Of a DNA stretch of 64,000 bases, positions 1-4,587 are shown one piece after another. The DNA comes from Paracoccaceae bacterium (GTDB taxonomy: Bacteria > Pseudomonadota > Alphaproteobacteria > Rhodobacterales > Rhodobacteraceae): positions 1 to 64,000 of the forward strand of contig JAAFAB010000006.1 in the NCBI GenBank assembly GCA_018222585.1, given 5' to 3'. Position 1 is the stretch's first letter. Each line of letters opens with the position of its first letter. Both the position numbers and the translations under genes were made by a program. Below the pieces are notes generated by a model. The model was not told where the DNA came from, made no database searches, and was given only the letters and a program-made list of their open reading frames with translations.

Positions 1-889
1 CCGGGGTCAGCGCGCCGCTGCTGGCGGTCACGTTGTAGCCGCCCGCCGTGCCGTTGGCCGTCGCCGTGATGCTCACCTGGCCCGACCCGTTGGTCACCCC
101 GGAGGGCGCCGAGAGGCTGGCCGAGGCGCCCGAGCCCGGCGCCGAGAAGCTCACCGTCTCGCCCGCCACCGGGTTGCCGCCCGCATCCGTCACCGTCACC
201 ACCAGCGCCGAGGCGAAGGCCGTGGAGACCGCCGTCGACTGGCCGCTGCCCGAGCTCACCGCAAGGCTCGCCGCCGGGCCGGCCGTGTTGGTCAGCGCGA
301 AGTCCACCGGGGTCAGCGCGCCGCTGCTGGCGGTCACGTTGTAGCCGCCCGCCGTGCCGTTCGCCGTCGCCGTGATGCTCACCTGGCCCGACCCGTTGGT
401 CACCCCGGAGGGCGCCGAGAGGCTGGCCGAGGCGCCCGAGCCCGGCGCCGAGAAGCTCACCGTCTCGCCCGCCACCGGGTTGCCGCCCGCATCCGTCACC
501 GTCACCACCAGCGCCGAGGCGAAGGCCGTGGAGACCGCCGTCGACTGGCCGCTGCCCGAGCTCACCGCAAGGCTCGCCGCCGGGCCGGCCGTGTTGGTCA
601 GCGCGAAGTCCACCGGGGTCAGCGCGCCGCTGCTGGCGGTCACGTTGTAGCCGCCCGCCGTGCCGTTCGCCGTCGCCGTGATGCTCACCTGGCCCGACCC
701 GTCGGTCACCCCGGAGGCCGCCGAGAGGCTGGCCGAGGCGCCCGAGCCGGGCGCCGAGAAGCTCACCGTCTCGCCCGCCACCGGGTTGCCGCCCGCGTCC
801 GTCACCGTCACCACCAGCGCCGAGGCGAAGGCCGTGGAGACCGCCGTCGACTGGCCGCTGCCCGAGCTCACCGCAAGGCTCGCCGCCGG
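1..889 (-). repeat. tandem 306-bp repeats encoding Ig-like domains
   Basis: Direct tandem repeat of period 306 bp (102 codons). In coding order the units are 889-584, 583-278 and 277 to the window edge. The visible overlap of units 2 and 3 differs at about one base (near position 56/362); unit 1 differs from them at only a handful of bases. This identity, silent sites included, points to recent duplication or ongoing gene conversion rather than old divergence. The total number of repeats cannot be seen here. Confidence 0.93.
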
Positions 890-1360
890 GCCGGGCCCGC
901 CGCCACCGATGGTGCCGGTGCTGCTGGCATTGGTGAAGGTGAAACTTGTCAGCGCCGTTCCACCGTGGCTGCCGGTGATCGAGCACCCCGCGGAACAGTC
1001 GACCTGCAGGGCCGGAGACACCGGTGTGCCGTTGACCGAGTAGCTGATCGCCCGGGGGTCATCCGGGCCTTCCTGCATCTCGAAGTTGCTGGTCCCTGAC
1101 GAATTAATCACATCGATGAAGATGAAATCCTCGTCGTAGCTGGTGTTGGCCGGAGGTGTGGTGCCGACCACGAAGCAATTGTCATCCGTGAGGTTCAGGG
1201 CAAGCTGTTGGCCGACGGCAGCGGCAGGACAATCCGTGTAGGCCGCACGCGCCGTGCCGGGTGTCACGACAAGCATCAGGGTGGCGAACAGGGCAAGCAG
1301 GGCGGCGGAACCGGATCGGCCGATCTCCCCGGTCATTCGGGACAAAAGCCACGGCACCAT
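1..1360 (-). CDS. secreted Ig-like (Big-1-type) repeat protein, partial at left edge
   Basis: The reading frame is open on the minus strand from an ATG at 1360 to the window edge, so the C-terminus is missing. Residues 1-40 form a signal peptide (hydrophobic stretch LLALFATLMLVV, then an ARA|AY-type cleavage site). About 115 residues of a Cys-containing domain of unknown family follow (TDCP, DDNCF, VDCSAGCS), then a GGGG linker, then 102-residue Ig-like repeats. Each repeat carries the Big-1 signature: VTVTDAGGNPVAGETV, followed by SGQVSITATANGTAGGYNVTA. Big-1 domains are typical of surface adhesins of the invasin/intimin type, so an extracellular role is inferred. The start is uncertain: in-frame ATGs at 1336, 1360, 1405, 1417 and 1429 all lack a good Shine-Dalgarno. 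The gene is divergent from the tail-collar genes. Confidence 0.75.
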   Translation of the reverse strand, partial: MVPWLLSRMTGEIGRSGSAALLALFATLMLVVTPGTARAAYTDCPAAAVGQQLALNLTDDNCFVVGTTPPANTSYDEDFIFIDVINSSGTSNFEMQEGPDDPRAISYSVNGTPVSPALQVDCSAGCSITGSHGGTALTSFTFTNASSTGTIGGGGPGPAASLAVSSGSGQSTAVSTAFASALVVTVTDAGGNPVAGETVSFSAPGSGASASLSAASGVTDGSGQVSITATANGTAGGYNVTASSGALTPVDFALTNTAGPAASLAVSSGSGQSTAVSTAFASALVVTVTDAGGNPVAGETVSFSAPGSGASASLSAPSGVTNGSGQVSITATANGTAGGYNVTASSGALTPVDFALTNTAGPAASLAVSSGSGQSTAVSTAFASALVVTVTDAGGNPVAGETVSFSAPGSGASASLSAPSGVTNGSGQVSITATANGTAGGYNVTASSGALTP

Positions 1361-2109
1361 TTCAACAAAACCACGGATGATCCGAAGACCGGTAAACGCG
1401 CCCATATCTGCGCCCATGACTGCCCCCATGCATACACATAAATTGCCGCACGGACCCACCCCGGCGACGAAAACATACGGATTCGGATGAATTCGGACCC
1501 TCGTCCGGTCAGCGATTCCAAACGCTTCGGACGGTATCCTGAAAGGCAATTCAGAAAAAGATCAAACCACAAAGACTCAGGAATGAGAAAAAACACATAC
1601 CAATACACATTAATAAATACATGAATCCATTGAGACACAGGGACCACTGGATGAGGTGATCCCCACCCTCTCGGCCGCTCAAGGGGAGAGATACCTACGA
1701 CTTTCGTCGTAAAAATTCATGATATCAATGTACTATATCAGCAAGACCCCTTCCGGGATCCGGCCTGGGATCGGGGTCCGGAGGCGGGCGCCGCCCCCGC
1801 GACTTCCGACAAGGAACGGCCCGGGAGGCAAGACAAACAAGGCCCGGTCGACTTTACGGTGCCTGTCTGCGGCTCTGGAATAGGGCCGAACGACATTGAC
1901 CGAGACCGATAGGCAACAGGTCATCTATTGGCGAAAAATTGCCGAGAACCCCCTCAAAAAGATCATTGTTTCATTGGATGCGGGCCCGGCTGCCGTTCGG
2001 AATCACTCCCTGATTTCAGGATAATTCAAAAAGCAAGATAGACAGAATGGGAATCGCAAACTACGCATTTGGTCACGCAGCATTGCAAGCAATCAGAGGG
2101 AGGAATGCG
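1361..2109. other. long divergent intergenic region, AT-richer than surroundings
   Basis: About 750 bases between the Ig-repeat gene (minus) and the first tail-collar gene (plus). Positions 1540-1740 and 1930-2050 are clearly AT-richer than the rest of the window. There is a short hairpin, TACGAC-TTTC-GTCGTA, at 1696-1711 followed by A residues. Short open frames at 1333-1647 and 1733-1924 (minus) have no good ribosome-binding site and atypical composition, and are not considered genes. The region must hold the two divergent promoters, but no convincing -35/-10 pair was identified. Confidence 0.6.
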
Positions 2110-2622
2110 GTGGCGGAACCATTTCTTGGGGAAATCCGAATGGTCGGGTTCAACTTCCCCCCACGGGGCTGGGCCTTCTGTGACGGCCAAATCCTGCCAA
2201 TCGCCCAGAACCAGTCGCTCTACTCGATCCTGGGCACCACCTATGGCGGCGATGGCATCAGCACCTTCGCGCTGCCGGATCTGCGCGGCCGGACCCCGGT
2301 CCACAAGGGCAACGGCATCTCCCTTGGTGAAAGCGCCGGGACCGAGACGGTGACGCTGACCACGGCGGAGATCCCGGAACACATCCACTACGCCAAGGCT
2401 TCGGTCAGCGTCGGGAACACCGCGAGCCCGGGCGGACATGTCCTTGCCGCCGAAACCAGTGGCGATTTCGCCTATGCGGAGTTCAGCGAGACAGATGCGA
2501 TCGCCCTCCGGGCGGGGACGCTGATGTATTCCGGTGGCAGTTTACCGCACAACAACATGCAGCCTTACCTGACCCTGGCGTTCTGCATCGCCATCCAGGG
2601 GCTCTTCCCCTCGCGCAACTGA
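2110..2622 (+). CDS. phage tail collar domain protein (MdpB-like), copy 1
   Basis: 170-residue member of the microcystin-dependent-protein-like/tail-collar family (COG4675). Family hallmarks are present in order: EPFLGEIRM at residues 3-11, GWAFCDGQ near 20-27, LGTTYGGDG near 42-50, LPDLRGR near 56-62, and a C-terminal block HNNMQPYL with the ending FPSRN. I chose a GTG start at 2110 rather than the upstream ATG at 2047, because a strong GGGAGG lies six bases before it and the protein then begins like copies 2 and 3. It has no signal peptide. It is the first gene of a plus-strand group of three paralogues and a GNAT gene. The biological role of bacterial, non-phage members is not established. 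Confidence 0.88.
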   Translation: MAEPFLGEIRMVGFNFPPRGWAFCDGQILPIAQNQSLYSILGTTYGGDGISTFALPDLRGRTPVHKGNGISLGESAGTETVTLTTAEIPEHIHYAKASVSVGNTASPGGHVLAAETSGDFAYAEFSETDAIALRAGTLMYSGGSLPHNNMQPYLTLAFCIAIQGLFPSRN

Positions 2623-2638
2623 ACCCGGAGGACATCTG

Positions 2639-3157
2639 ATGTCGGAACCCTATGTCGGCGAAATTCGCATGTTCGCCGGAAACTTCGCCCCGAAGGGCTG
2701 GGCCTACTGCGACGGTCAACTTCTGGCAGTCTCACAGAACGACGCCCTGTTTTCCCTGCTCGGCACCACCTATGGCGGCGACGGGCGCACCACCTTCGGC
2801 CTGCCGGACATGCGGGGACGTATCCCGCTGCATCTGGGCAGCGGGCCGGGCCTGACGACACGGCGTGAAGGCAGCAAGGCGGGCGGGGAAACAGTGACGC
2901 TGACCATCGCGGAAATGCCCAGCCACTCGCATGGCCTGTCGGCCAACACCTCCGCGGCGACGGCGGAAAGCCCGAGCGACCATGTCCTCGCCGCAGGTGT
3001 CGGGATCAACATGTACTCGGGCGAACCGCTGAACGCGCCGCTGGCGCCCGGCGTGATCGATCATTTCGGCGGGTCGCGATCCCACTCGAACCTGATGCCG
3101 ACGCTCTGCGTCCACTTCATCATCGCCCTCTTCGGCATCTACCCGAGCCGCCACTAG
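2639..3157 (+). CDS. phage tail collar domain protein (MdpB-like), copy 2
   Basis: 172-residue paralogue of the preceding gene, starting 17 bases after its stop with a clear CCGGAGGACA ribosome-binding site. It begins MSEPYVGEIRMFAGNFAP and contains GWAYCDGQ, LGTTYGGDG, GLPDMRGR and a C-terminal FGIYPSRH. The middle section (about residues 70-140, Gly/Ser/Ala/His-rich) differs strongly from copies 1 and 3, while both ends are conserved. In tail-fibre-like proteins that pattern fits a variable exposed part between conserved folding ends. No signal peptide, membrane segment or other phage gene is adjacent. Confidence 0.9.
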   Translation: MSEPYVGEIRMFAGNFAPKGWAYCDGQLLAVSQNDALFSLLGTTYGGDGRTTFGLPDMRGRIPLHLGSGPGLTTRREGSKAGGETVTLTIAEMPSHSHGLSANTSAATAESPSDHVLAAGVGINMYSGEPLNAPLAPGVIDHFGGSRSHSNLMPTLCVHFIIALFGIYPSRH

Positions 3158-3167
3158 GAGATCAGAC

Positions 3168-3698
3168 ATGTCGGAACCCTTCATTGCCGAGATCCGCATC
3201 TTCGCGGGCAATTTCGCGCCCCGAGGCTGGGCCTTCTGCGACGGGCAGTTGATGCCGATCGCCGATAATACCGCCCTCTTCTCCCTCATCGGAACGACCT
3301 ATGGCGGGGATGGTAGGACGACCATGGCGCTGCCGAACATGCAGGGTCGCGCCCCGATGCATCCCGGCAGGGGGCCGGGACTGACGATGCGACGCCTCGG
3401 CGAGCGCGACGGATCGTCCACCGTGACCCTGACCGAGGCCCAGCTCCCTTCGCATGACCACCCGATGATGGCCTCGTCGGACATGGCCAGCACGGCAACC
3501 CCCACCACCGAAACCTCGCTGGCCCGGTCCGGCTTCGGGGACAATCTCTACCAGACGAACACGACCGAGAGCCTCGCCTACATGGCGTATCAGGCAGTCC
3601 AGCGAACCGGCGGCAGCCAGGCGCACCAGAACATGCAGCCCTACCTGGCGCTCAACTTCATCATCGCCCTGACCGGACTTTACCCTTCCCGGGGGTGA
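3168..3698 (+). CDS. phage tail collar domain protein (MdpB-like), copy 3
   Basis: 176-residue third tandem paralogue, ten bases after copy 2, with ribosome-binding site AGGAGATCAGAC. It starts MSEPFIAEIRIFAGNFAP and has GWAFCDGQ, IGTTYGGDG, ALPNMQGRAP and the C-terminal block HQNMQPYLALNF, ending LYPSRG. The central loop again diverges from the other two copies. The three genes are spaced for co-translation and probably form one transcript with the GNAT gene. Family assignment is secure; function is unknown. Confidence 0.9.
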   Translation: MSEPFIAEIRIFAGNFAPRGWAFCDGQLMPIADNTALFSLIGTTYGGDGRTTMALPNMQGRAPMHPGRGPGLTMRRLGERDGSSTVTLTEAQLPSHDHPMMASSDMASTATPTTETSLARSGFGDNLYQTNTTESLAYMAYQAVQRTGGSQAHQNMQPYLALNFIIALTGLYPSRG

Positions 3699-3718
3699 TC
3701 CGGGATCCGGCAATCGGA

Positions 3719-3745
3719 CGGGCGGCCCGCTTGCCGGGCCGCCCG
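3719..3745 (+). terminator. strong hairpin between collar gene 3 and GNAT gene
   Basis: Perfect 11-bp stem (3719-3729 with 3735-3745, core GGGCGGCCCG) and a five-base loop. It is not followed by a T-run, so it may be a transcript-stabilising or attenuating hairpin rather than a full terminator. Confidence 0.55.
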
Positions 3746-3765
3746 CCTGCATTTGAAAGGCACCC

Positions 3766-4290
3766 ATGTCGAGCACCACCGCCTTGCAGAGACATCCCAA
3801 TGATCGCCGCGCCGGCGTGCTCGGGCTGCGGTTCCGCGACATGACCGGGGAGGACATGCCCTTCATGGCCCGCCTTTACCGCTCGACCCGCGAAGAGGAG
3901 ATGGCCGGCCTGCCCTGGAGCGAGACGCAGCGGCAGCAGTTCATCCAGATGCAGTTCGACGCCCAGCACGCCCATTACCGGCAGCACTATCCCGCAGCCC
4001 TCTGGCTGGTGATCGAGACGCTCGGGCAGCCCGTCGGGCGCCTCTATCTTGAACGCTGGCCCCAGGAGGTGCGCCTCATCGACATTGCCTTGCTGCCCGA
4101 GGCGCGGGGCAAGGGCTATGGCGGGGCGATCCTGCGCGACCTGCAGGAGGAAGCGGCCGCCGACCGCCGGTGCATCGGACTCCACGTCGAAAAGATCAAC
4201 CGCGCCCGCGGGCTGTACCATCGCCTCGGCTTCGTGCCGGTCGAAGACAAGGGGCTCTACGAGCTGCTGCACTGGACCCCTGAGGCATGA
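3766..4290 (+). CDS. GNAT family N-acetyltransferase
   Basis: 174 residues, one GNAT domain from about residue 22 to the end. The acetyl-CoA-binding motif A is visible: LLPEARGKGYGGAILRDL, with the R-x-x-G-x-G pyrophosphate loop. It is followed by a motif-B-like NRARGLYHRLGFVPV. The ATG at 3766 has GAAAGGCACCC before it. It lies 67 bases after collar gene 3 on the same strand and ends three bases before a convergent DUF6916-like gene. The acetyl acceptor is unknown. The context suggests that a collar or Ig-repeat protein, or a small molecule connected with them, could be the target; that is inference. Confidence 0.88.
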   Translation: MSSTTALQRHPNDRRAGVLGLRFRDMTGEDMPFMARLYRSTREEEMAGLPWSETQRQQFIQMQFDAQHAHYRQHYPAALWLVIETLGQPVGRLYLERWPQEVRLIDIALLPEARGKGYGGAILRDLQEEAAADRRCIGLHVEKINRARGLYHRLGFVPVEDKGLYELLHWTPEA

Positions 4291-4293
4291 GCC

Positions 4294-4587
4294 TCAGGTA
4301 AAGATCGCCTCGTACTGATAGCCCGCATCCACCCGCGCCACCGGCACGAGGAAAAGCTCCTGCGCCCCGTGCGTTTCATGGGTCAGCGCATAGGTGGCCT
4401 GGGGCAGCGCGGGTTCGCCCGGGCCCTGCCACAGCAAGGAGACCGCACCACCTTCGCGCAGGCCGCTCGACAGTCTCTGCACCTCGATCAGCGTCAACTC
4501 GATCTGCGGCTGCACGGACGCGACGGTGCAAGCACTGCCCTGCAGGGCGGTGAATTCATCGACGGTCATGGTGCTGAAATCTGTCAT
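4294..4587 (-). CDS. DUF6916-like small protein
   Basis: 97 residues with the pattern I associate with the DUF6916 family: an N-terminal FTALQGSACTV, a central VSLLWQGPGEPALPQATYAL, and a C-terminal LFLVPVARV ending YQYEAIF. The start ATG is preceded by GAGGAGAT. There is no signal peptide or membrane segment. It is convergent with the GNAT gene (three bases between stops). From memory, proteins of this type often occur beside MdpB-like tail-collar genes, which matches the neighbourhood. No function is known. Confidence 0.75.
   Translation of the reverse strand: MTDFSTMTVDEFTALQGSACTVASVQPQIELTLIEVQRLSSGLREGGAVSLLWQGPGEPALPQATYALTHETHGAQELFLVPVARVDAGYQYEAIFT

Follow-up and report, generated by a model that had tools for sequence, protein, structure and literature searches.

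The first 4,587 nucleotides of the window, the whole stretch of 64,000 nucleotides that was analysed (positions 1 to 64,000 of contig JAAFAB010000006.1 in the Paracoccaceae bacterium assembly GCA_018222585.1), carry a gene cassette built around a triad of tandem collar genes, here called p1, p2 and p3. The triad is accompanied by genes for a GNAT acetyltransferase, a DUF6916 protein and a protein with immunoglobulin-like (Ig) repeats. All of these had been named in an original prediction, and every one was recovered by a Pfam match. The proteins p1 (2110..2622, + strand; 170 residues), p2 (2639..3157, +; 172 residues) and p3 (3168..3698, +; 176 residues) are leaderless and match the Collar family PF07484 with E-values of 7e-29, 2e-30 and 3e-28, respectively, at 98-105 bits against a curated cut-off of 24. 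Translation of p1 most likely starts at the GTG at 2110, which is preceded by a purine-rich ribosome-binding-like stretch. Each of the three contains an HxH (His-x-His) motif (2380..2388 in p1, 2924..2932 in p2 and 3453..3461 in p3, all +), placed by alignment with the T4 short tail fibre protein gp12, where the p1 motif falls on His445/His447. The cassette-type GNAT (3766..4290, +; 174 residues; E 2e-12) carries the conserved glycines of the acetyl-CoA loop, and the DUF6916 gene (4294..4587, −; 97 residues; PF21880, E 9e-24, 83.8 bits against a cut-off of 27) converges on it across a 3-bp gap. Upstream of the triad, positions 2..1360 (−) encode the N-terminal 453 residues of the Ig-repeat protein, with three Big_1 domains and a leader, truncated at the contig end. 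Its open frame (2-1549, −) matches Big_1 in Pfam (E 1.7e-28), the likely start is the ATG at 1360, and the leader was judged by eye. The Big_1 domains are encoded by a 306-bp tandem repeat (1..894; 2.9 copies, 99% match), inside which the contig ends. The window starts at base 1 of contig C19 of a 63-contig, 5.15-Mb genome, and its left side is unreadable in this genome. A same-genus copy (genome G003, locus L013) has the gene order of the window, and there the Ig-repeat protein, referred to below as the giant protein, is complete.

Conservation of the cassette was examined by scanning contigs of one genome per species with a p2 alignment, which yielded at least 584 relatives. Sequence was retrieved for the 79 top-ranking loci; the ranking is by similarity to the window p2, which biases the sample towards window-like triads. 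Exactly one triad was found at 64 of these loci, six collars at 2, one collar at 10 and two collars at 3. Gene context was counted only where the sequence extends 4 kb or more on each side of the triad (46 of the 64, the other 18 being set aside). Within 4 kb of these 46 triads, a GNAT gene was found in 43 cases, a DUF6916 gene in 35 and both in 35. The matches per successive kb from the triad number 35, 6, 2, 1 and then none for GNAT, and 30, 6, 3, 0, 0, 1 and then none for DUF6916. The bias was checked with 200 genomes of the window's phylum, chosen regardless of collar genes and including the window genome. DUF6916 is present in 31 of the 200 (the window's own counted), and 32 of its 35 places are within 5 kb of a collar; the exceptions are in three genomes: in G146 the collar is 45 kb off, in G166 no collar was found at all, and in G279 there is none on the contig concerned. 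The collar genes of these 200 genomes form 65 runs, namely 35 singles, 3 pairs and 27 triads, with none longer (one of two pieces of a broken-up match on contig C61 of the window genome, G000, was counted).

Chance clustering was ruled out by the distance profiles together with the 200-genome sample: because the two genes are seldom found apart, and in a fixed trio, the cassette is not a chance cluster. The original prediction had proposed a co-occurrence check; when it was run, DUF6916, GNAT, the Ig-repeat giant protein and the collar triad were found to associate far beyond chance and across phyla, rather than at random. The cassette is a conserved multi-gene system, with triads scored in 11 phyla. 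It is also carried on plasmids. A total of 76 plasmid records matched, and among the 40 listed, 34 have exactly three p2-like collar places; the hosts of plasmid triads range over Ruegeria, Deinococcus, Paenibacillus and Comamonas. No DNA match to p3 was found in E. coli genomes.

The three collars of a triad belong to distinct classes. A tree was built from loci with exactly three collar open reading frames (ORFs), comprising 76 triads and 228 collars (L015, L018, L019, L028 and L035 were left out). Position labels required 30 changes on this tree, compared with 108 when shuffled, and none of 200 shuffles was as low. Comparison between phyla covered 74 of the 76 triads, two of unknown phylum having been dropped and some phyla having been entered by hand (window and plasmid loci). 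For 178 of 222 collars, the top-scoring match from a different phylum occupies the same position, where one third would be expected, and for 210 of 222 it outscores the best match within the collar's own triad. One collar of each class is present in 61 of the 74 triads, 8 of these 61 having positions 1 and 2 swapped. Judged from these sequence comparisons, p1, p2 and p3 are old, distinct paralogues inherited as a set. Because the same classes are kept across phyla, the triplication would either predate most of these lineages or the set was transferred together.

Several observations point to a trimeric assembly of the collars. The collar profile matches T4 gp12 (E 2.8e-7), and HxH is kept in all 228 collars of the 76 triads, at the columns of gp12 His445/His447, the sole HxH of that protein. 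In pyocin fibres the HxH site is described as octahedral, with six histidines from three motif copies around one metal ion, and gp12 is reported in the same source to have the motif and to bind zinc (PMC6116203). Fused collars were found at L036, L199, L200 and L201, and the total per locus is always three domains. At L036, a single chain consists of a leader and three collars with an HxH in each. At L199 (7568-9760, +), a single 730-residue chain contains three collars followed by RTX calcium-binding repeats, which suggests type I secretion of this three-collar head. A collar-collar-GNAT chain with the third collar adjoining is encoded at L200 (5195-6874, −), and a collar-collar fusion plus one separate collar at L201. 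A monomer model of p2 was too poor to serve as a structure-search query.

The closest published counterpart is the tripartite tail of virophages. In Dishui Lake Virophage 2 (DSLV2), three consecutive PF07484 proteins co-purify and are reported to form a 1:1:1 heterotrimer, supported by native polyacrylamide gel electrophoresis and electron microscopy and favoured by AlphaFold3, with fibres of ~16 nm (PMC12724248). According to the same 2025 report, the triad binds Synechococcus cells in a manner dependent on lipopolysaccharide (LPS), as determined by enzyme-linked immunosorbent assay; the genes adjoin a minor capsid gene; and the tail proteins group by gene position across 45 virophages including DSLV2. 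One virophage subunit is described there as fairly stable as a homotrimer too, in simulation. Because a virophage heterotrimer has been published, the heterotrimer reading of the bacterial triad is strengthened and the homotrimer alternative weakened. The original prediction had also proposed that the parts of the cassette work together, an idea that gains from the gene fusions and, for the collars, from the virophage heterotrimer (PMC12724248).

The GNAT and the N termini of the collars may be connected. In 78 triads with 234 collars, a start codon is possible within 3 residues of the first collar residue for 230 collars, and the second residue is Ser or Ala in 199 of these 230. Leader-like extensions, called with a home-made hydrophobicity rule, were flagged in 7 of the 234, six of them from L035 and L105. 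The relation between leaders and GNAT was analysed for runs flanked on each side by 2.5 kb or more of sequence (n = 103; 91 leaderless, 11 Sec-type and 1 mixed), leaving out L202 (a duplicate of L107), L037 and L038; L105 and the window fail the 2.5-kb rule. A GNAT gene accompanies 70 of the 91 runs scored as leaderless, compared with none of the 11 Sec-type runs (Fisher 7e-7), a value that overstates independence since 6 of the 12 Sec-type sites come from the window's own family. The twelfth site is L100, where a leader was seen by eye; the corrected counts are 70 of 90 and 0 of 12, the Fisher value being from the uncorrected counts. DUF6916 is likewise absent beside Sec-type collars, and L105 is a Sec-type triad without GNAT. 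The acetyl-CoA loop glycines G117 and G119 of the GNAT are invariant in 13 of 13. Its score against RimI is 35 bits, below the cut-off of 86.4, and the likeness to RimI and other N-terminal acetyltransferases is at the family level only. On account of this RimI-like similarity, the Ser/Ala second residues and the absence beside Sec-type collars, the GNAT is inferred to be a cytoplasmic maturation enzyme for leaderless collars, probably acting on the N terminus.

All 44 aligned DUF6916 relatives match PF21880 (E 0.001). The model of the protein is a small beta-rich domain with a predicted local distance difference test score (pLDDT) of 92.6. Viral proteases were the top PDB rows for this fold but were dismissed, as the matches are not significant. 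No PHROG match was found, and no mention of DUF6916 was found in the open-access literature. From its distribution, our best guess is that DUF6916 is an assembly or export partner of the collars. At L012, a short ORF (1912-2145, +) adjoining the DUF6916 gene looks by eye like a peptide precursor.

The giant protein was followed through long ORFs rich in Thr, Gly, Ser, Val, Asn and Ala, chosen by this length and composition. At 33 of the 46 full-context triads such an ORF is present within 1.5 kb (32, 4, 0, 1, 1, 1, 0, 0 and 0 per successive kb), and in many loci it ends 12-280 bp ahead of collar 1. Because giant ORFs cluster at triads, the Ig-repeat neighbour is part of the pattern. Family models were run on ten giants, with Pfam on L013, L027, L043, L031, L072, L112, L119, L077 and L092 and with NCBIfam on L107. 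All nine scanned by Pfam contain Ig-, cadherin- or similar repeats. Surface anchors, each of the type customary in its lineage, were found in four of the nine: an autotransporter barrel at L027 (Ruegeria; E 1.5e-23), SLH domains at L031 and L092 (Paenibacillus) and a type IX secretion system (T9SS) tail at L072 (Dyadobacter). The C terminus of the L013 giant is homologous to the L027 barrel (E 5e-31), its own Pfam barrel match being absent; the window copy is cut earlier. Several giants without an anchor, those of L084, L112, L119 and others, were seen by eye to share a C-terminal motif, R-QR-STT-RLPGYGG...AV..F...N...CP, just ahead of collar 1. This motif could be a docking site for the collar head.

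The interval between p3 and GNAT is a slot for varied genes. A single common family of ~400 residues at this place was considered and refuted; the slot holds unrelated passengers, including a PLL-type propeller at L027 and its kin and a periplasmic binding protein in Deinococcus. The L027 gene matches a PLL-type lectin propeller (PDB 6rfz) with an E-value of 2.4e-13. In four Pseudomonadota cassettes (L047, L051, L055 and L057), the slot contains a family of ~118 residues with, by eye, a twin-arginine-like leader. Taken together, the anchors on some giants, the Sec-leader relatives, the RTX-tailed fusion, the lectin-propeller slot gene and the binding of LPS by the virophage triad point to outward action. 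The evidence best supports reading the cassette as a binding device that acts at the surface or is released.

The favoured account, which we consider probable on the whole of the analysis, is that the collars of the cassette assemble into a heterotrimeric head, the cellular counterpart of the virophage tripartite fibre, used at the surface or released. One p1, one p2 and one p3 would knit into a trimer, with a metal ion bound by its six histidines. Maturation of the leaderless subunits would take place in the cytoplasm. The GNAT would probably acetylate them there, the candidate site being the N-terminal Ser or Ala bared after Met removal, and DUF6916 would serve as the small assembly or export partner. 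The head would act on the surface of the cell or beyond it and bind LPS-like glycans or other surfaces, and the giant protein would form its stalk or anchor. A more ambitious version is put forward only tentatively and is, in our judgement, rather less probable than not: a pan-bacterial surface machine with an obligate A:B:C head locked by HxH-bound metal, a dedicated GNAT and DUF6916 under which the head is built in the cytoplasm, a novel leaderless export route and anchored giant Ig/cadherin-type stalks that bear the head or are released together with it. The virophage fibre would then be a borrowing from this machine or its cousin.

A number of observations weigh against the heterotrimeric surface head. 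Besides the selection bias of the 79 loci and the shared family of half of the Sec-type sites, the association of the parts is incomplete: among 68 leaderless triads, 10 lack GNAT, 21 lack DUF6916 and 24 have no giant-like ORF within 3 kb. DUF6916 also stands beside 8 of the 35 single collars and is thus not triad-specific, and its fold gave no significant match in PDB (best E 0.12) or BFVD (best 0.038). The position classes are not clean clades. The three collars of L015, like those of L035, are mutually nearest kin, which means that recent triplication or gene conversion also occurs. The three-collar fusion of L199 lacks HxH. Modelled as a monomer, p2 folds poorly (pLDDT 59); this is compatible with an obligate oligomer but is no proof of one. 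As for the outward path, no recurrent export gene was found flanking leaderless cassettes in an inspection by eye of the first 25 flanking families, and no anchor was found by Pfam in the giants of L077, L112 and L119. Finally, 11 of the 79 viral-catalogued contigs also carry collars in triads or in multiples of three, so a triad alone is no proof of a cellular system.

These viral counterparts were collected with the same query, 79 loci being fetched from contigs catalogued as viral. One collar ORF was found on 62 of them, two on six, three on nine, six on one and nine on one, and HxH lies inside the matched part in only 63 of 116 collar ORFs. A cassette-type GNAT was found only at L122, L123 and L127, and DUF6916 only at L127. 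The L127 contig (1-2254; IMG/VR) has two collars at the contig end together with GNAT and DUF6916. Two other viral-catalogued loci, L124 (1-5456) and L126 (5693-8909), have nine and six tandem collar ORFs, respectively. In a collection of phage records, 367 match, all below 60% identity and the top-ranked at 39%, compared with 70% for plasmids; each of the 30 phage records listed has one collar place. Nine annotated plasmid copies were found to have no capsid, sheath or lysis genes in their gene tables, which are incomplete, and their tail genes are the collars plus one "tail fiber domain" protein (L035). In the left flank of L013 (11.5 kb fetched), no phage family was found by Pfam among the four ORFs scanned; three matched a pyridine-nucleotide oxidoreductase, a DEAD-box helicase and conserved hypothetical protein 698, and the fourth was unmatched.

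The counts just given bear most directly on the notion that the cassette was left behind by a prophage, virophage, tailocin or contractile injection system, or is carried by one as cargo. Collar is counted among the phage tail families, the collars match tail PHROGs, virophages have collar triads of their own (PMC12724248), and some viral-catalogued triads come with GNAT (L122, L123) or with both GNAT and DUF6916 (L127). Yet DUF6916 has no PHROG, phage records stay below 60% identity against 70% for plasmids, 62 of the 79 viral-catalogued loci have one collar and only 3 a cassette-type GNAT, the nine plasmid copies have no capsid, sheath or lysis genes in the annotation listed, and the virophage triad adjoins a minor capsid gene, not GNAT and DUF6916 (PMC12724248). 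A prophage remnant was accordingly rejected as the general explanation on identities, viral-contig counts, PHROGs and neighbours, with the viral-catalogued triads as the exception, and a viral origin of this kind is held to be very unlikely. The original description of the cassette as lying outside any phage holds as far as it can be read: the left side is unreadable in the window genome, and an adjacent tail module is absent from the four ORFs at L013 and from the nine plasmid copies with their incomplete tables. Its further description as a dedicated surface or particle system stands as regards a conserved system; the surface or particle role of the bacterial form is inferred, and collar triads are also present on some viral-catalogued contigs. 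Another role connected with phages would be that of a surface decoy or blocker, the heads covering or mimicking phage receptors and so protecting the cell. T4 gp12 is annotated for irreversible adsorption to host cells, and a bacterial head could compete for the LPS that the virophage triad binds (PMC12724248). However, PADLOC gave 0 matches at E 0.01 for the three collars, the GNAT, the DUF6916 protein and the same-genus giant protein. A known anti-phage defence system was rejected on this basis, and the probability of a decoy is regarded as slight.

Two further alternatives accept a cellular system and differ in what the collars do. In one, the triad encodes three separate gp12-like homotrimers of differing specificities, displayed side by side. 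Divergent collar centres would suit three specificities, the single collars with DUF6916 nearby (8 of 35 single runs) presumably homotrimerise, and one virophage subunit is fairly stable in this form in simulation (PMC12724248). Against separate homotrimers stand the count fixed at three (27 triads, 3 pairs and none longer among 65 runs), the same three classes kept across phyla, the fusions that sum to three domains, twice within one chain, and the publication of the virophage triad as a heterotrimer (PMC12724248); this arrangement is therefore judged unlikely. In the other, the collars form a cytoplasmic complex that stays inside the cell, perhaps as a metal store or regulator, and the giant protein, though often nearby, has no part in it. 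The rarity of leader-like extensions (7 of 234 collars) would agree with this, as would the lack of a prominent secretion gene among the first 25 recurrent flanking families inspected by eye. The same module is nevertheless put outside by the 12 Sec-leader sites and the RTX-tailed three-collar fusion, the giant ORF lies tens of bp from the triad in many loci, the operon slot is shared by lectin-like and periplasmic-type genes, and the virophage triad binds LPS (PMC12724248), so that a purely internal role seems improbable. The heterotrimeric head at or outside the surface is thus preferred to each of these.

Comparison with known systems helps to delimit what is new. The virophage tripartite tail proteins (DSLV2 and 44 related) resemble the cassette in having three consecutive same-strand collar genes that group by position (PMC12724248). 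They differ in being viral and in standing beside a minor capsid gene, a capsid gene being absent from the nine annotated bacterial copies. The main text of that paper does not contain the words acetyltransferase, DUF6916, HxH or histidine, and the two are likened here by gene layout, not by sequence comparison. T4 gp12 (PDB 1ocy, 1pdi, 5iv5) shares the collar domain and the HxH at aligned positions, but is one gene with a shaft in a virion, whereas the cassette has three different collar genes and also encodes a GNAT, DUF6916 and a giant protein of the cell. In rhiABC of Rhizobium leguminosarum, RhiB (COG4675) is a non-phage collar protein in a plant-associated operon (PMC6969944, PMC13133039). 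This operon differs in having one collar gene; RhiA and RhiC have no Pfam domain, and the descriptions in these sources, on which alone the comparison is made, do not mention GNAT, DUF6916 or a giant protein. Large repeat adhesins, such as autotransporters, SLH proteins, T9SS Ig-repeat proteins and CshA/tandem-95 fibrils, are of the same kind as the giant neighbour. To our knowledge, none has been described with collar triads, GNAT and DUF6916. The Photorhabdus PLL-type lectin propellers (PDB 6rfz) are like the slot gene of L027, an optional passenger that is absent from the window. No cassette of collars with GNAT, DUF6916 and a giant protein in a cellular context was found among the open-access papers listed. 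The apparent novelty lies in a cassette that is cellular, spans phyla and combines the collars with GNAT, DUF6916 and a giant protein; the collar heterotrimer is already known from virophages.

Bacterial collar genes carry the annotation "tail fiber protein" or "microcystin-dependent protein" and are easily written off as phage debris. Many such genes belong to a conserved system in at least 11 phyla, with a predicted stoichiometry of 1:1:1 around one metal ion. The cassette supplies a candidate dedicated modifying enzyme as well as a genomic context for DUF6916, and it ties the virophage heterotrimer to a much wider bacterial family. Three questions also become testable: the ligands of the heads, the way in which leaderless collars get out of the cell and the possible role of RhiB-type collars in rhizosphere bacteria. 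Relatives of the collars are expressed, since COG4675 proteins are reported from soil metaproteomes (PMC5579227).

Some triads adjoin lasso-peptide-type genes, at L033 (2495-6948), L014 (1800-8116), L017 (10871-14800) and L016 (6934-7401). These neighbours include a PqqD-like carrier, a lasso B2 protein, an asparagine synthetase-like enzyme, an HPr-kinase-like protein and sulfotransferases. A lasso-peptide function for the whole cassette was rejected, such neighbours being present in some copies only. The window genome has two more collar-domain genes outside the cassette, on contigs C20 (373427) and C61 (300973), in frames of 1068 and 310 residues, respectively. Downstream of the window cassette, Pfam identified OpuAC, a glycine-betaine-type transport gene.

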